Positions 39,498-54,988 of a stretch of 64,000 bases of DNA are shown piece by piece. The notes under the pieces were generated by a model. That model worked only from the letters and a program-made list of their open reading frames with translations, ran no database searches and was not told the origin of the DNA. Source of the DNA: Clitopilus passeckerianus (Eukaryota; Basidiomycota; Agaricomycetes; Agaricales; Entolomataceae). The translations under genes were made by a program, and so were the position numbers. Location: the NCBI GenBank assembly GCA_944990035.1, contig CALYLX010000066.1, forward strand, positions 434,001 to 498,000. Direction: 5' to 3'. Within the stretch, counting starts at the first letter, position 1. Every line of letters begins with the position of its first letter.

Positions 39498-40988
39498 CTA
39501 GCGACCAGGGCATCCACAAGAAACGTTCAGCGCATAGCTCGCAACTTCGCCACCGTTGTTGAGAGCTCAGGCGTCAAGGTTGCCGCTGCTGACCACAACC
39601 AGCCCACCTCTTCGGTCACATTTCTGGTCAAGGCAGGAAGCAGGTATGAGCCTAAGCCCGGTGTTGCCCATGCTTTGAAGAACTTCGCTTTCAAGGTGTG
39701 TAACAATGAAATGGAAGTTGATTAACTGTCACTGAAGACAGCCCGATGAATTTACATAGAGCACAGCAAACCGGTCGACCATCGGAACGGTCCGCGAGAG
39801 TGAGCTCTATGGTGGCCAATTGTCATCAAGCCTCACTAGGGAGCATTTGGCTTTGACAGCTGAGTTCCTTCGTGGTGACGAGTGAGTTTGTGAACTGGCG
39901 GAGGGAATAAATTCACTGACGGTATCTTCTTCACAGATCCTACTTCGTTGACGTTCTCTCGTCCTTCGTCACCTCCGCCAAGTTCACCCGACATGAATTC
40001 GAGGAGTACGTTCTCCCCACCGTACAGGGTGATGCTCTTGCTGCCCAGGCCAACCCTGCTGTTCGCGCTCTCGAAACTGCACACACCATTGCCTTCCGGA
40101 ACGGCCTCGGATCCTCCCTGTTTGCACCCGCCCACAACTCCGTTACCTCGGAGGATGTCAAGTCTTTCGCCCAGTCTGCTTTCTCAAAGGACAATATTGT
40201 TGTAATTGGCACTGGCATTGACCAGACAACCCTTTCCAAGCTTGTGGAGAAGTCTTTCAGCAAACTCACAGCTTCCGCGTCCACAACCGGTTCTACCTCG
40301 TATTTCGGTGGGGAGACCCGAGTCGAGGGTCATGGTGGTCCTCAGACCGTCTTCATTGGTTATGGCGTCACCGGTGCCCCTTCTGCTGAGCTCGCCACCC
40401 TCGCCACCCTCTTGTCCACTGAGGCGTCAGTCAAATGGTCGCAAGGCCTTTCACCCATTGCCGGCAAGATCCCCGAAGGAACACACGTCCAGAGTGTCTA
40501 CCTTCCTTACTCTGATGCTTCTCTTGTTGGTTTCCTTGTTCAAGGCAACACTGCTGCCGATGTCAAGGTTGCGAGCAAAGCTGCTGTTGAGGCATTAAAG
40601 GCAAGCGTTTCGGCTGACGCAGAGGCTCTGAAGAGGGCATCTGCAAAGGCCAAGTTTGCTGCCGCTAGCGCTGCTGACGGTAGGGATGGTTTGGTTGCCA
40701 CCATCGGTCCTAAGGTGAAATTTCTCGTTCAGACTCTGTTCGCTCCGAACTGATCATCTTGTTGCAGGTTTTCGGTGGCTCAGCACCTTCATTGGATGCT
40801 ACCCTCTCTACTTTCGACAGCGTCAACGCCTCTTCCTTCTCCAAGGTTCGTAATTCTAGTTGACCATTATTTAGCAAATCATCTGACACGTTGTATAGGC
40901 TACTTCAGAACTCATCAAGGCCAAGCCAACATTTGTCGCTGTCGGCGATGTGCAAGCTCTGCCCTACCCTGACGAGCTGGGACTTTGA
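39498..40988 (+). CDS. QCR2: Cytochrome bc1 complex core protein 2
   Basis: Mitochondrial complex III subunit on the matrix side, M16 peptidase fold. Five exons: 39498-39695, 39760-39881, 39937-40714, 40768-40845, 40899-40988. The N-terminus (MLATRASTRNVQRIARNFATVV) is a typical matrix-targeting presequence. M16-type blocks are visible: TSSVTFLVKAGSRYEPKPGVAHALKNFAF, LYGGQLSSSLTREHLALTAE, FAQSAFSKDNIVVIGTG, and the C-terminal VGDVQALPYPDELGL. The zinc motif HxxEH is absent (HALKN), as expected for a non-catalytic core 2 rather than a processing peptidase. About 420 residues, the usual size. Confidence 0.9.
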
Positions 40989-45630: not shown

Positions 45631-45686
45631 TATAAAACCGGCTCCGAACTGGATTTCGATTCTCCAATTCCTCAGCAGGTTCTGAG
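45631..45686 (+). promoter_or_regulatory. Core promoter of precursor gene 1: TATA box and CTCAG hairpin
   Basis: TATAAAA at 45631, then CTCAGCAGGTTCTGAG at 45671-45686, a 5 bp stem (CTCAG/CTGAG) with a 6-base loop. The same pair, with nearly the same spacing (39-42 bp), precedes precursor genes 2 and 3. The hairpin should lie near or just after the transcription start. Confidence 0.6.
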
Positions 45687-45773
45687 CAATCCAAAGCCAA
45701 CACACACTCTCGCAACAGCTGGTCTAACGCGCTTTTTTCACTCTTACTCTATTACATTCCCAATCGTTTCATA

Positions 45774-47432
45774 ATGAAGTACTCTCAAGCCATCATCGTC
45801 GCCACCATCGGCTCTGCCGCCCTCGTTTCTGCTGCCCCTACTGTCGGCCACGGTGCTGCTCACCCTCAGACCCACCACAACAAGCCCGCTCACCGTGGTT
45901 CCGAGAAGGCCAAGGGTCTTACGCACAACATCAAGCAAGGTGCTTCGACCGCTCTCCGCACTGCGGGAGGTGCTGAAGGCGTCGCCACTCACCTTGGCAA
46001 TGTGGTCAACCTCTATCATGCCTCCAAGCAGTTATCGAGTCCTGAAGTCCGTGCCGTCACTGAGCCCGCGGCCAAGGCTCCAGGCGGCGTTCACCACAAG
46101 AAAGAGTCCTTGTCTGCTGCGTCTCCCTCCGAGACTGAAGAACAGACGACGGAGGCTGTTGCTCACCACCACCACAGGGAGAAGGTCGGTACCAAGCAAC
46201 CCCACCCCCACCACAAGAGCGATAAGATTCACCACCGCATCAAGGAGACCGCTGGTCATGTCAACCCTACCCTTGCCAAATCCAACAAGGCGCACCCCAA
46301 GACCAACCCTGGTGAGACTACTCCCGTCTCTACGGTCCCTACTGGCCCACCTGCGCCCGTGGCTGTCCGTGACTTCGTTGAGGAGGAGCTCCAAGCTCGT
46401 CTCTTTGACCATTTCAAGCAGAAGTACAGGGAGGCCAAGGCTGAGCGTCTCCAGAAGAAGGCCGACAAGGCAGCTGCTAAGGCTGCCGGAGGTCAAGAAC
46501 AGCCGGTCTACCGAGACCTCCTTGACGAGGAGTATCTCGCTGCTCGTGACTTTGAGGACGAGCTTGAGGCTCGTGGTCTCCGCGACGCCTTCAAGGCCGC
46601 CAAGCACGCCATCTTCCACAAGCACACTCCCTCTGCCCCCGCCGATCCCTCCCAGGACCCCAACATGGTTGCCAGGTCTTTCCTTGACGAGGAGGACCTC
46701 TTCGAGCGCGACTTCGCCGACGTTGAAGACCTCGAGGCTCGTGGCATCCGGGACGCCTTCCACGCCGCTAAGCACATGATCTTCCACAAGCACGCATCTG
46801 CTGCCCCCGCCGAGGATCCTAGCATGGTCGCCAGGGGCTTCTTTGACGAGGAAGATCTCTTTGAGCGCGACTTTGACTTCGATGATCTCGAGGCTCGTGC
46901 TGGTGGTGGTATCGGCAAGGGCATTGGCCGCGTCTTCACCAAGGCTCGCAATGCTCTCAAGGGACATAAGACCGACATCGCTCTCACTGGCGCTTCCATT
47001 GGCGCCACCGTCGGTTCGACCGTTGGTGTTTCCACTCGCGACTTGAGCGACGAAGAGTTTGACGAACTCGTCGCTCGTGCTGGTGGAGGCATTGGCAAGG
47101 GCATTGGCCGTGTCTTCACCAAGGCCCGCAACGCACTCAAGGGACACAAGACCGATATCGCTCTCACCGGTGCCACCATTGGTGCCACTGTCGGCTCTAC
47201 CGTTGGGGTTTCCACTCGCGACTTGAGTGACGAGGAATTGAACGAGCTCGTCGCTCGTGGTATCCTTAGCAAGGTCTTCAACAAGGTCCGTGGTGGTCTC
47301 AAGGGACACAAGACCGATGCTGCCTTCACCGCCATGAATGTTGGTGCTTCCATGTCTGGTGGCCAACGCCGCTCTTTGGATGACTTCGAAGAGCTCGAGA
47401 TGCGCGACTTCGAACTCAATGAGCTTGACTAA
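45774..47432 (+). CDS. Secreted repetitive peptide precursor 1
   Basis: Intronless 552-residue CDS; family not recognised. Signal peptide MKYSQAIIVATIGSAALVSA. Residues about 24-200: His/Lys/Ala-rich, low complexity. From about 200 the protein alternates basic or amphipathic modules with acidic spacers ending in one Arg. Spacers include SFLDEEDLFERDF, FEDELEAR, DLSDEEFDELVAR. Modules: two copies starting GLRDAFKAAKH / GIRDAFHAAKH (residues 268 and 324), two 60-residue units starting AGGGIGKGIGRVFTKARNAL (residues 376 and 436, exact 180 bp period), and a last variant GILSKVFNKVRGGLKGHKTD (residue 496) closed by GGQRR/SLDDFEE. It ends DFELNELD. No Cys. Lys is nearly always AAG, suggesting high expression. 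The layout looks like a precursor cut into several peptides; this is inference, and a structural or metal-binding wall protein is the alternative. Confidence 0.75.
   Translation: MKYSQAIIVATIGSAALVSAAPTVGHGAAHPQTHHNKPAHRGSEKAKGLTHNIKQGASTALRTAGGAEGVATHLGNVVNLYHASKQLSSPEVRAVTEPAAKAPGGVHHKKESLSAASPSETEEQTTEAVAHHHHREKVGTKQPHPHHKSDKIHHRIKETAGHVNPTLAKSNKAHPKTNPGETTPVSTVPTGPPAPVAVRDFVEEELQARLFDHFKQKYREAKAERLQKKADKAAAKAAGGQEQPVYRDLLDEEYLAARDFEDELEARGLRDAFKAAKHAIFHKHTPSAPADPSQDPNMVARSFLDEEDLFERDFADVEDLEARGIRDAFHAAKHMIFHKHASAAPAEDPSMVARGFFDEEDLFERDFDFDDLEARAGGGIGKGIGRVFTKARNALKGHKTDIALTGASIGATVGSTVGVSTRDLSDEEFDELVARAGGGIGKGIGRVFTKARNALKGHKTDIALTGATIGATVGSTVGVSTRDLSDEELNELVARGILSKVFNKVRGGLKGHKTDAAFTAMNVGASMSGGQRRSLDDFEELEMRDFELNELD
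46575..46898 (+). repeat. Two RDAF-module repeats in precursor 1
   Basis: Units at 46575-46742 (56 codons) and 46743-46898 (52 codons). Each has an amphipathic basic helix-like part (RDAFKAAKHAIFHKH / RDAFHAAKHMIFHKH), a Pro/Ala linker, xMVAR, and an acidic spacer DEEDLFERDF..DLEAR. Confidence 0.8.
46899..47258 (+). repeat. Two 180 bp tandem repeats in precursor 1
   Basis: Units 46899-47078 and 47079-47258 differ at few residues. Each encodes GIGKGIGRVFTKARNALKG, a hydrophobic Ala/Gly/Thr/Val stretch (TGASIGATVGSTVGVS) and an acidic spacer DLSDEE..ELVAR. A diverged third copy starts at 47259. Confidence 0.85.
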
Positions 47433-47434
47433 TT

Positions 47435-47491
47435 GTAAGTTTCCGTTCTTGATTCGCATCCGGCTCCCTTCTAATTCTTGCCTTCTTCTAG
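47435..47491 (+). other. Probable 3' UTR intron of precursor gene 1
   Basis: GTAAGT...TTCTAG, 57 bp, starting 2 nt after the TAA stop (47430-47432). Pyrimidine-rich before the acceptor. Precursor gene 2 has an intron at the same place. Confidence 0.6.
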
Positions 47492-47529
47492 GATCGATAA
47501 TGTATCTTAGAGTCGTCTATAATTAGTGT

Positions 47530-48456
47530 ATTAATTCGTGTAGACTTTTAATCGCCTGGTCGAATAAAAGAGTTTGTTGGCAAAACTTCAGTGTGCATTT
47601 GAAACCTGCTGGCAATTGGATCTGCGACTGATTACGAGGAAAATAAATCCCTCGCATCTGTTACTTGTTGGGTTTCATGGCGAGATCTTGAGTCCTAGCC
47701 ATGGAAATCTAACGAGCATGAATTGAGAGATGCCGCACCCAATGTCAGCCCAATGTTTCCGTTAGTGTTCACACACATCGAAAATTTGGCTTGTTCGTCT
47801 CGGACGAAGTTGTCCCACAACCTCTACCAGCAAACCCAACACACGAAAATATGTACTGTTGACCTGACACACTTGACCATCTCGTATCCATCGTGTTGAA
47901 CCTCATGGCTTCTATCCAGAATGACCTCGCTGTACTTATGTCCAGAGTTGCCTGGCCAAGCGGGAACCTCGGAAAACATTCTGATTTCGACCTTTTCCTC
48001 TGAGCACCCAAACATCGACGAAACAACATCTCATTACTCTGGTTGTTGTCTCTAGAAACCAGACCAAATATCTGCTGGCGACATGTGGGTTTTGAATAGG
48101 AGCGAGGGCTTTCTACTCAAGTTTCCACTAGCAACGCATCAAAGATGGGTCTTTGGAGTGTTGCAAAGTGATACCCTTTGTTCCCATTGTGGATACTGGA
48201 GATCGTGCAAATTCGCTCAAGGATACATACGTCTAACTGCTGCTAGCTCCAGGATTCGACGAAAGATATGTTTATGTATCGATTCAGTTGGGCCAGTATT
48301 CAACTGACGACAAAGGGACAGGTGGGTTAGATTCCTTTTATCATCTAGTCGATCGTGATCAAAGATTGATTTATGCTCACAGTATCCTTGTGGTAAAATA
48401 CGAATACACAGCCATCGAACCTACCTCTCTACATCTTCCATCGGCATCATCTGGAG
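47530..48456. other. Intergenic region between precursor genes 1 and 2
   Basis: No coding frame with support; contains the 3' end of gene 1 and the promoter of gene 2. Confidence 0.4.
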
Positions 48457-48511
48457 TATAAAAGCATGGCTATCGCAGGACGGTTTCTTCAATTCCTCAG
48501 CAGGTTCTAAG
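48457..48511 (+). promoter_or_regulatory. Core promoter of precursor gene 2: TATA box and CTCAG element
   Basis: TATAAAA at 48457; CTCAGCAGGTTCTAAG at 48496-48511. The flanking AATTCCTCAGCAGGTTCT is identical to gene 1, and the stem has one mismatch. Confidence 0.6.
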
Positions 48512-48602
48512 TAATCCACACAAGGATCCCAATCGCCAGCTGGTCTGACTCTCTCAACTCTTTCAACCCACTTTTCTCTTCGACAAAACTATTTTCATCA
48601 TC

Positions 48603-49955
48603 ATGAAGTACACTCAAGTCGCCATCGTTGCTCTTGCTGCTGGCGCTTCCATCGTTAGCGTCAAGGGCTCCAGTTTCCATGGACGTGACCTTACCAAAGA
48701 CCCCGCCGCCGTTGACCCTGCTGTCCAGACCCAGGCCAGCTCCCGGGCACCTCTCTTGACCACCCACAAAGCACACCATCAGCACGCTCAGGGCGCTGGG
48801 ACCACCAGAAAGACTAAGTCTCACCACAAGAGCGCTGCTGAGGCCGAGAAGAGGAAGCAGAGGCGCAGAAAACACAAGAAGGTCCCTGGTACCACCGCTG
48901 ATGGTGCTAAGGTCGATGCTGCAGCCGAAAAGCCTCTTTCCATGAAGTCTACCACCGAGACATCTTCCACCTCTAAGGCACCTTTGAGACCCCCTGTCAA
49001 CGCCAACAAGGCCCCCGTCCCAGCTCCCAAGCGCGTCACTGCTCGTGACTTCGATGAGCTCGAGGCACGCTTCCCCACCTTTGGTCGTGTTGGCTTTGCT
49101 GGTGCCCACATGCGTCACCCTGAAGGTCGCTCACTTGACGACAACCCCCTCGAAGCCCGATTTAAATTTGGTGGTGCTGTGGGCCGTATGGGAGGTCACT
49201 TCCACGGTATGATGGGAAGGATGAGAGGAGGTCACCGACATGGAGGAGGCGCGCCACAACAACCTTCTACTGAAGCCCGTAGCTTCGATGAGGAGTCCGT
49301 CTTCCAGCGTGACTTGGACTCGGATGACCTTGAAGCACGCTTCTTTGGCCGATTCAGGCATGGTCGTGGCCCTCCCCAAGCACAACCCGAAGGTCGTAGC
49401 CTTGACGCGGAGGATCTTGAGGCTCGTTTCTTTGGCCGGTTCGGGCGAGGTCGCCGTGGTGGAGCCCCTCAAGCACAGCCCGAAGGTCGCAGCTTTGACG
49501 ACAATGACCTCGACGCTCGCTTCTTTGGCCGATTTGGGCGCGGCCGCCGTGGTGGTGCTTCTCAAGCACAACGTGAAGGCCGCAGTTTCGATGAGGAGTC
49601 TCTCTCCCAACGTGCCTTGGACTCCGATGACCTTGAAGCACGCTTCTTTGACAGATTCGGGCGAGGTCGTCGTGGTGGTGGCCCTCAAGCACAAACCGAA
49701 GGTCGCAGTTTGGAAGCTGATGACCTGGAGGCGCGTTTCTTTGGCCGATTTGGACGAAGTCGCCGTGGTGGTGCTCCTCAAGCACAACCAGAAGGCCGTA
49801 ACTTCGACGACAACGAGCTCAACGCTCGCTTCTTTGGCCGATTTAGGCAGGGTCACCGTGGTGGCGCTCCTCAAGCACAACCTGAAGGCCGCAGCCTTGA
49901 CGAAGAGCTCGACCTCCGTGCCCTCGACGATTTCTTCCTTAACGAGCTTGAGTAA
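48603..49955 (+). CDS. Secreted repetitive peptide precursor 2 (FFGRF repeats)
   Basis: Intronless 450-residue CDS; no known family recognised. Signal peptide MKYTQVAIVALAAGASIVSV, close to that of precursors 1 and 3. Residues about 25-145 are low-complexity with many K, R, H and P. Then acidic spacers (FDELEAR, SLDDNPLEAR, SFDEESVFQRDLDSDDLEAR) alternate with Gly/Arg-rich modules. Six modules start FFxRF at residues 247, 276, 307, 348, 379 and 410, typically FFGRFGRGRRGGAPQAQPEGR. The spacers between are about 10 residues (SLDAEDLEAR, SFDDNDLDAR), or 20 where doubled. It ends RALDDFFLNELE. No Cys. Each module is strongly basic and each spacer acidic, a pattern of multi-peptide precursors; cutting after the spacer Arg is inferred, not shown. 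An RGG-like nucleic-acid-binding role is unlikely given secretion. Confidence 0.75.
   Translation: MKYTQVAIVALAAGASIVSVKGSSFHGRDLTKDPAAVDPAVQTQASSRAPLLTTHKAHHQHAQGAGTTRKTKSHHKSAAEAEKRKQRRRKHKKVPGTTADGAKVDAAAEKPLSMKSTTETSSTSKAPLRPPVNANKAPVPAPKRVTARDFDELEARFPTFGRVGFAGAHMRHPEGRSLDDNPLEARFKFGGAVGRMGGHFHGMMGRMRGGHRHGGGAPQQPSTEARSFDEESVFQRDLDSDDLEARFFGRFRHGRGPPQAQPEGRSLDAEDLEARFFGRFGRGRRGGAPQAQPEGRSFDDNDLDARFFGRFGRGRRGGASQAQREGRSFDEESLSQRALDSDDLEARFFDRFGRGRRGGGPQAQTEGRSLEADDLEARFFGRFGRSRRGGAPQAQPEGRNFDDNELNARFFGRFRQGHRGGAPQAQPEGRSLDEELDLRALDDFFLNELE
49341..49910 (+). repeat. Six FFxRF module repeats in precursor 2
   Basis: Modules begin at 49341, 49428, 49521, 49644, 49737 and 49830, so periods are 87, 93, 123, 93 and 93 bp. 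The 123 bp step contains a doubled acidic spacer. Units 2, 3, 5 and 6 are the most alike. Confidence 0.85.
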
Positions 49956-49957
49956 AG

Positions 49958-50018
49958 GTTAGTTCATCCGCCTCGTTCTTGTGTTCATCTATCTGACTTG
50001 GCTCGTCCTCATTCCTAG
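49958..50018 (+). other. Probable 3' UTR intron of precursor gene 2
   Basis: GTTAGT...TCCTAG, 61 bp, starting 2 nt after the TAA stop (49953-49955), the same position as in precursor gene 1. A CTGAC branch-like site lies about 25 bp before the acceptor. Confidence 0.6.
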
Positions 50019-50949
50019 TTACTCATGATTCTGATGATGTACTGTAGAGCAGTCAGTCAGGCTAGTCGTTGCATTGCTTGTTCCGGGTTTCTCTGTATTG
50101 AGATCGATTGTATCAAAACTAATACATTGCTTGAACCCAATCTCGATCCGGATGGACCTGTATCAACGGAGTCCTTTTTCTGTTCAAGGACGCCCATTTG
50201 CACGTCTACAACAGGGCATAGATGAGTAGTCTCCCAGTCTCCTAATATTCAGGAACCCATTCGCCGACAGTGAAATGTGTCTTCTAACAATCGAGCGATG
50301 ATCGAAGATCCTATCTTGTATTATAGGGTCAGAACGGTCAGCATCAGCCAACGATTCGAAGAGGGCAGTTCACCCTCGTTTCGACGCTAAAATAACGAGC
50401 GGGTTCAGTGTTGGTCCAGGGGTCACAAATGGGTCCGGGTTTGTACGTCGTGTCGTGAATGCAGGGACCCTGAAAAGCCGTTGAAAACGGTCTTAGCCAA
50501 AATTCTAGCAATCTTGTAGTCATCTTCAGTTTGACCGGCGGGATCTTTTAAAGTGTGTCGATATTAGATCTCTTTTCAGCATTCATATCGACTTCGCTGC
50601 CAGCCTGAGGGATCGCGGGACTGATGGCGGGACAAAATGCGGACCGTCAAAACAGATCCTCCTAACCAAACCATCGTAACAGTTTCCTATGTTCTGATTT
50701 CATGTTCTACTGCTAGCTACGGAGTAAGTCACCCCTGGGACGTGGAACACTCCTGTGGGCTCTGACAATATACATGACAGCGCCCAAGCTCCATTCCATT
50801 CATAGCCTTCCATACCCGACAATGAAACCTGATGGTCTGCTGATGGTTTTCAAGTCTACGGATTCTTGAGGCACTTGATATCGCACAGCTTTGGCGGCGA
50901 CTTGATCAACCTCCACTGATCTCCATAGTAACTTTGCCGAAACTCATGG
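50019..50949. other. Intergenic region between precursor genes 2 and 3
   Basis: No supported coding frame, RNA or repeat. Confidence 0.4.
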
Positions 50950-51006
50950 TATAAAAGCTTTGAAGCTCTCGTTTGTCTGTTTCCTCATCTCCTCAGCCGG
51001 TCTGAG
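50950..51006 (+). promoter_or_regulatory. Core promoter of precursor gene 3: TATA box and CTCAG hairpin
   Basis: TATAAAA at 50950; CTCAGCCGGTCTGAG at 50992-51006. The stem CTCAG/CTGAG is kept while the loop differs in sequence and length (5 rather than 6), which favours a structured element. Confidence 0.6.
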
Positions 51007-51084
51007 TAGTCACCCAAGCAACCTACGAGCAGAGCTCAATTTTTTCTTTCAACACACTTTTTTCTTATCAATCTCTTCTACATC

Positions 51085-52524
51085 ATGAAGTACTCTCAAG
51101 CCGTTCTTGTCGCTGTCGTCGGAGGTGTCACTCTTGTTTCAGCTCGCCCTCTTGCCGCTCATGCCGCACCCGCCTCTAACGCTGTCGCGGCTGAGCAGGC
51201 CCCTGCTGCTCAAGTTCACCCTCATCACCATAATAAGCCGGAGCATCATCGCCATGAGGAGGTCGGCCAACATCGTCACCAAGGTTCTACTCGTGGTGCT
51301 ACTGAGCACGGGCATAGCTCTTCTCAAGAGAGGACATCTCACGCTGGCGCACCCGCTGCCTCGGTCGCTGGTCGTGACGTTGACGAGATTTCCGCCCGTG
51401 CTCCCACCCAGGGGGGGACTGCTGAACACAGTCACAGGCATGCATCCCAGCAAAGGGCTTCTGGCCACAGGCACGAATCCTCTCGGGATGGTGCTACCAG
51501 CCACAGGCATGAGTCCTCCCAGGAGAGGGGTACCGTCTCCAAAGCAGCTCACATCCGCCGACCCGCAGCTCCTGTCTCCGAGCGCGACGTTGACCAATTT
51601 TTCGCTCGTGCTTTGACACACGCAAACGCTGCTGCTCCTCTCGCTGGTGCGACTGATACCTCTACCCCTCCTATTGTCGCGACCGATGCTTCGACCACCG
51701 GGAAGAAGCAGAAGAAGAAACACCTCAAGAAGAAGAATCACAAGAAGGTCGACGAGCAAACTGCCATCCCCGCAGCCTCCAAGGCCGTCCGCGATCTTAC
51801 CGAGTCGTTCGAGCTTTACGAACGTCAGGATGATGCATCTGCTGTTGCCGATCCCGCCGCTACATCCGCAGATCCTTCTGCAGCTGGTCCTTCCGACCCC
51901 GCGACAGCTTCACCTCCCGCCACTGGTCACAAGAAGCACAAGAAGAAGCACCACAAGAAGAAGAAGAACCACCACCGTCAGGCCACTCGCGATCTTGACG
52001 ACGACGAGGATCTCCTCACCCGCTCATTCGACGGCTTCGACGATCTCGACATCCGTGGATTCTTCGACATGTTTAATCGCAAGACAACGACTCCTGCTAC
52101 CCACAAGCACAAGCACGCTCACAAGGAAGGCCACGTGCACAAGGAAGAGCACAAGGAAGCTCCTACCCACCCCGCTGCTGCTACTGAGCAGCTTGCCTCT
52201 GCTCCTGCCCACAAGGCCGTCGCTCCCCCCACCGAGGCACCTGCCGTTCCCGCATCTGAGGAGCCTGCTCAGGCCCCTCTTGCCTCTCGTTACTACGATG
52301 AGGATGTCTTCGAGCGTGACTTCTTTGAGGAGGAGGACCTCATGGCCAGGGAATACGAGGATGATTTCCTTGCTGCCCGCGACTACGAACTCGAGGACGA
52401 GCTTGTCGCTCGCGACATTATCGATGCTCTCCGAGTTATTAGGAATACCGTCGAACATCGTGACCTTCACGATGACCTCGACCTTCGTGGCTTTGCTGAC
52501 TTCGAGCTTGAAGAGCTTGATTAA
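51085..52524 (+). CDS. Secreted repetitive precursor 3 (His/Lys-rich)
   Basis: Intronless 479-residue CDS. Signal peptide MKYSQAVLVAVVGGVTLVSA. Residues about 45-150 are rich in His, Gln and Ser (HPHHHNKPEHHRHEE, repeated SHRHESSQ). Further basic blocks: KKQKKKHLKKKNHKK and GHKKHKKKHHKKKKNHHRQ, then HKHKHAHKEGHVHKEEHKE. Between them sit acidic spacers with Arg ends (GRDVDEISAR, ERDVDQFFAR, RDLDDDEDLLTR, DVFERDFFEEEDLMAR, DYELEDELVAR). A short hydrophobic/basic segment DIIDALRVIRNTVEHR lies near the end, and the protein closes FADFELEELD. Same signal, spacers and C-terminus as precursors 1 and 2, so homologous, but the modules differ. The His clusters could bind Cu, Zn or Ni. Processing and function are inference. 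Confidence 0.75.
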   Translation: MKYSQAVLVAVVGGVTLVSARPLAAHAAPASNAVAAEQAPAAQVHPHHHNKPEHHRHEEVGQHRHQGSTRGATEHGHSSSQERTSHAGAPAASVAGRDVDEISARAPTQGGTAEHSHRHASQQRASGHRHESSRDGATSHRHESSQERGTVSKAAHIRRPAAPVSERDVDQFFARALTHANAAAPLAGATDTSTPPIVATDASTTGKKQKKKHLKKKNHKKVDEQTAIPAASKAVRDLTESFELYERQDDASAVADPAATSADPSAAGPSDPATASPPATGHKKHKKKHHKKKKNHHRQATRDLDDDEDLLTRSFDGFDDLDIRGFFDMFNRKTTTPATHKHKHAHKEGHVHKEEHKEAPTHPAAATEQLASAPAHKAVAPPTEAPAVPASEEPAQAPLASRYYDEDVFERDFFEEEDLMAREYEDDFLAARDYELEDELVARDIIDALRVIRNTVEHRDLHDDLDLRGFADFELEELD

Positions 52525-52808: not shown

Positions 52809-54988
52809 ATGACTTTACGACCACCCGATGAGTTAACGACCACTGTATACGAGGCTTTGAACTCGCTTTCACAAGCTCATAAAGCCAATGTGCTGCTGGA
52901 CACCGCTTTGGCTCTCATACAGGCTGGAAAGTCGGTAGAACAGGCCATGCGTGATTCATTCCGGCACTCACAATTCATTTCGTTCTAGGTACGGTCCAGA
53001 CGTCGAAAACTACCTGGATGTGTATTTCAAGACCCCTAATCTTCCTAGAGAAGACATCGCAAAAGCTCTTCTAGCACGTGGAACTGCCCGAAAAGCAGCA
53101 GGTGAACGGTTGTCATCACTTGCGCACCAAGGTACGTCCGTTCTTATTATCTGGATCCATATTCTATGTGTGCTGATCATGTAACGTGTCCAATTAGATT
53201 TTCAAGCCGTACTTAAACTTGACCCATCCAATAGAGAAATTCAACATCATATACGCCGGGAAAAACGTGTACGTGCACGGTCATTCATATTGCGGCCTTG
53301 ACGTTCTCAAACCCGCTCAGATACGCTTCAAGGATGAACCCGCTTCTCAACGTGCACCTTCCGAAGTTTGGGAGCGTATTGCATACCATATTCCTCGACA
53401 TTACCTGCGCAACTGGCTCTTTGTCTCTTCCTTTCACCGAGATGTTGCAGTTCGTCAGATCTTCCACACTGTGGATATCTACTTCGGCGAAGACCAAGAG
53501 AACGTTACCCGAGGTCTAGACATCTTCGATCGAGTGAAAGAAGACCCCATTTTCGCCAGTAGAGTGAAGTCGCTGCGGATTCATTGGGCATATGAAGAGG
53601 GAGAGCTGCTTGATCTCATGGCTCGTATGTCCCTTCATTCTTCTCCAACTACCCTGTTTTACTGACTTTATGGTTTCAGGGATGTTTAAAAATGCTATAC
53701 CCCACTTTAAGGCGCTTGTTGACTTCGAGTGGATAGGCTACCCCGAAATGCGTGCTGAGATGGTCCAGGCTGTTTTGGCGAGCCATCCCCGGATACGAGG
53801 TTTAGGTTTAATGTATGTTCCATTTACCAACTTCCGTAGTTTCATATGTTCATCACCTCCTAGAGGTTGGCATTTCGACGCGGTTGGTGTCTCGGCATTC
53901 CACAACCTGCGAAAATTCACATTAAGAGCGGAAGACGATGACGGCTTCGCAGATATGGGCGAAGTCCGGACAGTCCTCGATCAAAACCACCATACCCTTC
54001 GTCATCTCATTCTTGGGGCATACCTTGCACGAACGCATTCCTGGGACTCAGCTTTTCAGTCTGTGACAATCAAGAATCTAACTCACCTCGATCTCGTCGA
54101 TACCCGGATTTCGCATACGGTGTTCGCCCGGATAGCACATGCTCATAATTTGCAGAGCTTGACGTTACATGGGACCTTTACTGACTCGAATGCTGCCAGC
54201 ATTATGCTTGGAAGCGACCAAGTCCTCGATGGAGAGCACACATCCCTTCCTCATCTCGAGTCATTTAGGTTTCTGATGGTGGGACATGAGCATGACCACG
54301 CACTCTACGGAAGTGTAATTCATTTCCTCGAAGGCCGCAGGAAGCTCAGGAAACTCGATCTAGGAGGATGCCCTTGGGAGTTAGTTCAACCTCTCCTACC
54401 TGAATTGACAAGTCTACGGGTACTTGGTGTCAAGATTCCAAATTTGTCACTCGTAGAGATATCCACCCTCACCGCGTCTATTCCTGGTGAGATGAGCGCC
54501 ATCAGCCTAAGCACCACAGTCTCAGATAAACCTCTGGTATGCTTCTACATTTTCCGGCTTTCTGTCACGATCGACTCATTCAATCTCCTTTCTAGAACGA
54601 GTATGCACAGTGCTTCTCCCGATTCCACAACCTCTCTTTTCTGCACCTCCAATGTGCATCCAGACGAAGACCACAACCAAGCCAGATGCCCGAAAAAGAG
54701 TTCCAACTTCAAACGGGCCTCTGGATCTCCAGCGCACGAAGTATTGCAACAGCACTTCCCTCGGTAGACTTCATTGGTTGGCACGGGGAACATTACGTCG
54801 TCATACGAACGGGTGATCACGATAATTGGGCCGGAAGTCATTTTGGTACTAGCGGGATTGAGTTGAAGGAGTTGCCAGCGAGGCAGAGGTTGGATTGTGG
54901 GAAGGGTGTTGATCTGGGAAGTTTTGATGTGGAATGGCTGGAGAGGAAGGATGTTCCGATGGATTATGAGGAGCCTGGATTGCTATGA
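52809..54988 (+). CDS. TPR-like/F-box/LRR-type protein
   Basis: Second gene with the plan of 42650-44771. Six exons: 52809-52930, 52989-53131, 53198-53268, 53321-53624, 53680-54536, 54596-54988, all joining in frame. N-terminal helical TPR-like part: LSQAHKANVLLDTALALIQ, REDIAKALLARGTARKAAG, DFQAVLKLDPSNREIQ. F-box: APSEVWERIAYHIPRHYLRN. LRR-like lines follow (FHNLRKFTLRAED, IKNLTHLDLVDTR, AHNLQSLTLHG, RRKLRKLDLGGC). Ends DVPMDYEEPGLL. Probable SCF substrate adaptor in nucleus or cytosol; target unknown. It is transcribed away from the precursor cluster, as is the matching gene on the other side. Confidence 0.8.

Follow-up and report, generated by a model that had tools for sequence, protein, structure and literature searches.

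The stretch analysed here is 64,000 nucleotides of the Clitopilus passeckerianus genome (contig CALYLX010000066.1, positions 434,001 to 498,000; hereafter the window). It carries three genes, g1, g2 and g3, whose predicted products alternate mostly cationic segments (cargo) with short acidic linkers. We read them as predicted secreted precursors that a kexin would cut at the linkers, releasing several, probably antimicrobial, peptides per chain; judged from sequence, this reading taken whole stands at an even chance. The genes, their predicted signal peptides and their leader elements are as follows, P0003 being one of eight relatives (P0001-P0008) from other sources.

45774..47432, + strand: g1 precursor, 552 aa, single-exon coding sequence (frame open from ATG to stop; Arg/charge segmentation; relatives)
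48603..49955, + strand: g2 precursor, 450 aa, single-exon coding sequence (frame open from ATG to stop; segmentation)
51085..52524, + strand: g3 precursor, 479 aa, single-exon coding sequence (frame open from ATG to stop; segmentation; cargo in common with P0003)
45774..45833, + strand: g1 predicted signal peptide MKYSQAIIVATIGSAALVSA (by inspection)
48603..48662, + strand: g2 predicted signal peptide (by inspection)
51085..51144, + strand: g3 predicted signal peptide (by inspection)
45671..45691, + strand: g1 leader element CTCAGCAGGTTCTGAGCAATC (pattern searches; TATAA at 45631)
48496..48516, + strand: g2 leader element (pattern searches; TATAA at 48457)
50992..51011, + strand: g3 leader element (pattern searches; TATAA at 50950)

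The initial annotation had described three single-exon genes on one strand with a common start, C-terminus and promoter, and this description is confirmed. Each frame runs uninterrupted from ATG to stop, in all three cases on the + strand. The proteins start with MKYSQA (g1), MKYTQV (g2) and MKYSQA (g3), with a hydrophobic stretch visible by eye, end in FELNELD, FFLNELE and FELEELD, respectively, and contain no cysteine. The sequence CTCAGC(C/A)GG lies 93-107 nt 5′ of each ATG, with TATAA 39-42 nt further 5′. The extended form CTCAGC(C/A)GG(T)TCT(A/G)A has three copies in the window, all at these leaders. A longer pattern, built from the three leaders themselves and searched in the whole genome (64.8 Mb, 160 contigs), again matches only at g1-g3 (three matches) and not at the dispersed paralogues described below; the reversed control gave no match. 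The three upstream stretches contain no inverted repeats of at least 12 bases.

Apparent short introns begin 2 nt past the stop codon of g1 (47435-47491, GTAAGT...TAG) and of g2 (49958-50018, GTTAGT...TAG). Codon bias, taken as a possible mark of high expression, places g1-g3 close to or beyond the highest of ten other window frames, a signal too weak to use.

Acidic linkers and the code at their ends

Each protein was cut after every Arg and the resulting tokens were marked by net charge. A linker was a token of 4-14 residues plus Arg with a net charge of -3 or lower; it is thus defined by charge, and Leu plays no part in the definition. In the layout that emerges, a predicted signal peptide is followed by an N-region that is basic or rich in His, after which cargo ending in Arg alternates with acidic Arg-ended linkers. 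Cargo is mostly about 14-60 aa long, and up to 131 aa in g3, and the linkers of g1-g3 measure 8-13 aa. They stand singly or in tandem; the longest run has four linkers in g3 and seven in P0005. The main elements of the arrays, all on the + strand, are listed here.

46371..46400, +: g1 first acidic linker, DFVEEELQAR (segmentation)
46401..46514, +: g1 cargo type A, LFDHFKQKYREAKAERLQKKADKAAAKAAGG... (best match P0002, similar segments in P0001; confident predicted helix)
46515..46574, +: g1 tandem linkers DLLDEEYLAAR-DFEDELEAR (segmentation)
46575..46676, +: g1 cargo type B copy 1, GLRDAFKAAKHAIFHKHTP... (segmentation, comparison with relatives)
46743..46835, +: g1 cargo type B copy 2, GIRDAFHAAKHMIFHKHAS... 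(segmentation, comparison with relatives)
46899..47039, +: g1 cargo AGGGIGKGIGRVFTKARNALKGHKT... copy 1 (segmentation, codon comparison)
47079..47219, +: g1 cargo AGGGIGKGIGRVFTKARNALKGHKT... copy 2 (codon comparison with copy 1)
47259..47372, +: g1 cargo GILSKVFNKVRGGLKGHKT... (segmentation)
47406..47429, +: g1 terminal truncated linker DFELNELD (segmentation)
49047..49952, +: g2 linker/cargo array, six FFGRF/FFDRF-type basic cargos and two others (segmentation, codon comparison)
49920-49952, +: g2 terminal truncated linker ALDDFFLNELE (end of the g2 array)
52291..52413, +: g3 four tandem linkers YYDEDVFER-DFFEEEDLMAR-EYEDDFLAAR-DYELEDELVAR (segmentation)
52414..52461, +: g3 cargo DIIDALRVIRNTVEHR (similar to a P0003 cargo)
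52489..52521, +: g3 terminal truncated linker GFADFELEELD (segmentation)

The numbers of Arg-ended linkers are 10 in g1, 11 in g2 and 9 in g3, and 10, 10 and 7 of these have Leu at P4. The window has 79 stop-to-stop frames of 130 codons or more, counting both strands. Apart from g1-g3, none of them contains more than two linkers, and no linker in these 76 frames has Leu at P4. When the residues after residue 22 were shuffled (2000 trials), the maxima were 6, 9 and 7 linkers for g1, g2 and g3, against 11, 12 and 10 observed with the C-terminal token included. The acidic Arg-ended spacers of the initial annotation are borne out by these densities, which are far above those of window frames and shuffles. 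Among the eight relatives, P0002 and P0008 are the two whose observed linker number was matched by the best shuffle. Each chain ends in an acidic piece that resembles a linker without x-x-Arg, e.g. DFELNELD compared with DLSDEELNELVAR; on this resemblance the common C-terminal motif is a linker without its Arg.

The cut site had been proposed as (E/V/D)AR, and this does not hold. Site counts were pooled over 11 proteins (g1-g3 and P0001-P0008) and groups were compared by Fisher tests. Leu occupies P4 at 113 of 134 linker-end Arg, compared with 18 of the 232 Arg that lie within cargo or N-regions (other Arg); a few of these 18 end linkers that missed the charge cut-off. If Ile, Val and Phe are also counted, P4 is accounted for at 132/134 linker ends. 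In g1-g3 alone the figures are 27/30 for linker-end Arg, 0/71 for other Arg and 1/21 for cargo-end Arg. When P4 was drawn randomly within each linker (5000 trials), Leu averaged 21 and reached at most 36 of 134. Because of these counts, the code at the linker ends is L-x-x-R. The cargo-end Arg, where linkers start, are looser: P4 is Leu at 15/67 and one of LIVMFAP at 47/67, compared with 64/232 for other Arg. The residue that follows is Asp (42/67) or Ser (12/67) at most cargo ends, and after a linker it is Asp in 52, Gly in 25 and Glu in 23 of 134.

One alternative is that the proteins stay whole, as secreted polyampholytes that condense or coat the hyphal wall, and that L-x-x-R is a mere repeat motif. 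Repetitive proteins with such block patterns can be structural, the charge blocks do alternate, cysteine is absent, and the structure model of g1 (from nine sequences) is mostly of low confidence and partly helical. This model has no globular fold (mean pLDDT, the predicted local distance difference test score, of 53; predicted template modelling score, pTM, of 0.25) and places helices over many linker-cargo junctions, with residues 202-238 confident (pLDDT blocks of 78-97). Intact proteins would, however, leave unexplained why P4 Leu separates linker Arg from other Arg in g1-g3, and why cargo changes between paralogues while the boundaries stay, and we consider this alternative unlikely. That the precursors are cut into peptides is, in our judgement, likely.

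Relatives and the nature of the cargo

Each protein search scored only the approximately 8000 candidates sharing most words with the query. The g1 search returned seven relatives, P0001-P0007, of which P0001 is Hypsizygus marmoreus Hypma_002535. A profile search with nine sequences gave four matches, including the new P0008; it is no complete census, because four of the earlier relatives are absent from its matches. All eight share the linker/cargo layout, and all start with MKYSQA except P0006. This one pairs a different start (MVKIATS...) with the same linkers and a DELD end, so that the linkers do not depend on a single signal sequence. A complete C-terminus is available in 13 chains (g1-g3, three dispersed paralogues, P0001 and P0003-P0008; P0002 seems cut short), and it reads E-L-D or E-L-E in 12 and A-L-D in P0003.

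No Pfam model scored above its curated cut-off in a scan of g1-g3 and seven of the eight relatives, and the PF25977 label that P0001 carries in the database was not reproduced there. The Latarcin precursor model (PF10279) reached 10.8 bits on g1, short of its cut-off of 25; membership of that family was rejected, and the score served as a lead only. The best match of the g1 sequence among solved structures has an E-value of 0.67.

The dispersed paralogues were found with the start pattern, which matches the genome 11 times: at g1-g3, at one gene on each of contigs C82, C34 and C142, and at five sites where no gene of this kind is present. The dispersed genes have the same signal, a few N-terminal linkers and a long middle rich in Thr/Lys/His and Gly/Tyr, followed by an apparent intron and further linkers ending in FEVDELD. 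The surroundings on C82 and C142 are 91% alike over 6.2 kb, and those on C34 match in shorter pieces at about 78-91%, as duplicated segments. CTCAGC(C/A)GG is common to all six genes, 93-113 nt 5′ of the ATG.

In order to compare individual segments, those of the window genes were scored against the relatives and against 100 shuffled queries, for which the smallest possible p is 0.0099. Matches at p≤0.02 were found for 9 of 21 segments. For g1 these are 6/7 (five cargos, including a near-identical pair, as well as the N-region), a high rate that is partly expected because seven relatives came from the g1 query. The g2 N-region matches (it resembles P0004), and for g3 the count is 2/5. P0003 shares with g3 a DLTE(S/G)FELYER linker, a His-rich cargo and a DAL-type cargo, and looks like its counterpart as far as sequence can tell. 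The initial annotation had the modules differing completely. Cargo does differ between the three genes, but the modules are not without kin, since some g1 and g3 cargo classes recur in relatives.

Where cargo is repeated within a gene, its codons can be compared. The two g1 copies of AGGGIGKGIGRVFTKARNALKGHKT (AGGGIGKGIGR, GIGK) differ at 18 of 47 codons, with 17 synonymous changes and one nonsynonymous change (dN 0.010 and dS 0.62, the nonsynonymous and synonymous distances). Among five of the six g2 FFGRF/FFDRF copies pairwise dN is 0.02-0.14 and dS 0.17-0.88. The repeated cargo of g1 and g2 is under purifying selection, and therefore the cargo sequence itself matters in both genes. For comparison, four of the eleven g2 linkers gave a dN of 0.13-0.48 and a dS of 0.52-1.13 or not computable.

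This bears on a further alternative, that the acidic linkers are the products and the basic segments the spacers. Linkers are indeed the most shared part of the family, and they occur in tandem, with up to seven in P0005. The constraint on the g1 and g2 cargo speaks against linkers as the product, as does the higher dN of the g2 linkers relative to the g2 cargo and the g1 GIGK pair; the linker and cargo ranges touch, and the comparison covered linkers of g2 only. We regard this alternative as very improbable. The claim of a multi-peptide precursor family is thus sustained by the layout, by the eight similar relatives and by purifying selection on g1 and g2 cargo. The further claim that the cargo diversifies stands between genes and is weakened by the recurrence of g1 and g3 cargo in relatives and by the fact that most of the cargo copies compared show less variation than the four g2 linkers.

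The cargo comes in three kinds: Gly-start, helix-like segments in g1, Phe/Arg/Gly-rich segments of the FFGRFGRGRRGG type in g2, and Lys/His-rich tracts in g3. Each of the three resembles a known class of antimicrobial peptide. The first 18 residues carry a net positive charge in 45 of 54 cargos of at least 14 aa. Antimicrobial use of the cargo is, in our judgement, somewhat short of an even chance.

The precursors could also be cut as proposed and yield signals, symbiosis or host-interaction peptides, or metal-binding peptides. Fungal repeat precursors with such roles are on record, e.g. MiSSP8 (PMC7329392) and Rep1 (PMC8528282). The 41 His of g3, often beside Lys, would suit such a role, and cargo amphipathicity is no better than in a control. 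However, pheromone-type precursors repeat one peptide, unlike these chains with their several unrelated cationic cargos, and the cargo differs among three co-located genes. Such non-antimicrobial roles are a minority possibility, though one to be kept in mind.

Candidate proteases and known precursor systems

The initial annotation had expected processing different from that by Kex2. This claim is unsupported because LxxR is a published Kex2 preference; Asp also follows 42 of the 67 cargo-end Arg. According to a fungal-effector review, the Kex2 motif, written LxxR, combines Arg at P1 with an aliphatic residue at P4 (Leu or others, Pro included) and a tolerant P2, while Asp at P3 is unfavourable (PMC8528282). 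A library result in a study of Candida Ywp1 indicates a strong LXXR preference, and Kex2-dependent cuts in Candida Ece1 also follow IVAR, LITR and VSER (both PMC6258133). Agaricomycete repeat precursors made in Pichia gave products apparently ending at a single Arg (PMC9769878). Acidic residues are enriched at P1′, P2′ and P4′ of cleaved Kex2 sites (PMC2515848); we checked this at P1′ only, and it is acidic at most linker starts. The proposed cuts thus agree with the LxxR rule of Kex2, with Leu or an aliphatic residue at P4 and Arg at P1.

The genome has candidates for the protease. Two P_proprotein matches lie about 4.7 kb apart on contig C125, and both frames are kexins, with catalytic Asp (DDGLD), His (HGTRCAG) and Ser (GTSAAAP) motifs and P-domains, closest to yeast kexin, e.g. 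1OT5. These tandem genes (695500-704500) are about 74% identical over parts of their DNA. In an alignment the second copy retains both Asp of the yeast SDDYH motif, and the first copy shows His at the position of the first of them. As a lead, we take the altered residue to be D210, one of four S2 residues at which negative charges are conserved among aligned fungi (PMC2515848). Trypsin-like processing was rejected, the trypsin family having no match in the genome.

Another protease, e.g. a yapsin-type aspartic protease, might make the monobasic cuts. Yapsin 2 is called monobasic-specific in a cited title, and the favourites listed for yeast Kex2 at P2 do not include Ala. The near-constant P4 Leu, on the other hand, is a Kex2 preference in published work, so we find a yapsin-type enzyme quite unlikely, and that a kexin does the cutting rather probable. 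A bolder suggestion is that the duplicated kexin, with a less acidic S2 pocket, accepts a neutral P2, and that fixed signal, leader and LxAR linkers with slotted, unrelated cationic peptides are an independent fungal origin of a combinatorial design like that of spider venoms; we think it improbable.

In the kexin reading, the signal would direct secretion of the precursor, and a kexin in the Golgi would cut after the Arg at both linker ends, with LxxR at the linker end and often an aliphatic residue or Pro at P4, followed by Asp or Ser, at the linker start. Linkers would be discarded and several cargo peptides freed per chain, with the C-terminal Arg trimmed by a putative Kex1-type carboxypeptidase. 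Until release the acidic linkers may mask the basic cargo. The least certain step is the use of the peptides: the three compositional kinds of cargo would fit a defence cocktail of three kinds of cationic peptide against competitors.

Several observations count against this reading. P2 is Ala in 74 of 134 linkers (Glu in 15, Thr in 5), and Ala is absent from the top P2 residues given for yeast Kex2; the preferred, though not required, residues are Lys and then Arg, Thr, Pro, Glu and Ile (PMC8528282). P3 is the reportedly unfavourable Asp in 17/134 linkers (PMC8528282), and P1′ at cuts before cargo is often Gly or Phe and not acidic. RR sites inside g2 cargo would also be cut. Tandem runs of two to seven linkers exceed the need for spacing. 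No relative of g2 was found at E≤0.01 among the 7992 candidates scored, and 0/8 of its cargos match in the segment test. The g1 type B pair is less constrained (17 codons, three synonymous and three nonsynonymous changes, dN 0.14, dS 0.49), and the g1 model has a low mean pLDDT. Helical amphipathicity reaches p<0.05 in 11 of 54 cargos and in 12 of 72 N-region control windows; the combined p of 7e-6 was taken over related segments without a combined control, and we rejected amphipathicity as support because the control windows did equally well. Overall, the initial interpretation is partly supported.

Among known systems, the fungal Kex2-processed repeat proteins (KEPs; Le Marquer 2019, Umemura 2020, Vogt 2022) resemble g1-g3 in repeated units, predicted release by kexin and a signal peptide, which for g1-g3 is a prediction by eye, and some made in Pichia give products apparently ending at a single Arg, as proposed here (PMC9769878). 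They differ in that g1-g3 have a monobasic LxxR code in acidic linkers and carry several unrelated cargos per chain. KEP surveys look for KR/RR/KK between repeats (PMC6339444), or for at least three repeats of at least 8 aa between KR/KK/RK/RR (PMC7329392). Judged by eye against this dibasic rule, g1 fails, with three dibasic positions and none between repeats, g3 fails, with no repeats between its sites, and g2 might pass via repeated fragments between the RR sites inside its cargo. As in the initial annotation, which did not recognise the family as a described one, no description was found in open-licence PMC papers, a scope that excludes the supplementary tables of KEP surveys. KEP type #139 (eight members, one Hypsizygus strain) may or may not overlap with the family.

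Two further fungal systems share parts of the design. Ece1 of Candida albicans, the source of candidalysin, is likewise a single secreted precursor from which Kex2 cuts several peptides; it has seven KR sites, and the account we draw on does not mention acidic LxxR linkers (PMC6258133). Kex2-processed pro-domain (K2PP) effectors have the same extended LxxR motif (PMC8528282), used there to take a single pro-domain off a single effector, as opposed to a multi-peptide array.

A matching layout is that of the linear-peptide precursors of spiders (latarcins, cupiennins). Their anionic PQM/iPQM linkers are mostly 8-13 residues long (about 25 in Oxyopes) with Arg at start and end, and some chains end in a t-linker, a terminal linker without the processing quadruplet motif, PQM (PMC7889660, PMC8290080). 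In both systems cationic peptides alternate with anionic Arg-bounded linkers and the last linker is truncated, but the organism is unrelated and the protease and cut rule differ. The PQM as cleavage code was rejected here because its Glu rule is unmet (Glu at -2, -3 or -4 in only 55/134 linkers) while Leu at P4 is near-constant. The resemblance of layout is likely convergence, and common descent is not suggested. The three genes are best filed as a variant of Kex2-type multi-peptide precursors with a monobasic LxxR code, spider-like in their working without belonging to the spider system.

This class is of importance for genome surveys. The two published surveys cited here seek dibasic sites, and for this reason precursors with monobasic LxxR and acidic linkers would largely be missed; charge-defined linkers combined with P4 Leu as a search rule would reveal them. 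If cut as proposed, one gene would give several different cationic peptides, and paralogues would swap cargo behind constant processing parts, in convergence with spider venom precursors. The three genes also provide a concrete substrate for asking whether tandem kexins split dibasic and LxxR work.

Two neighbouring frames, with no link to the precursors, complete the locus: the one at 39920-40750 (+) matches an M16 peptidase domain above the cut-off, and the one at 53568-54764 (+) has a weak leucine-rich-repeat match below it.

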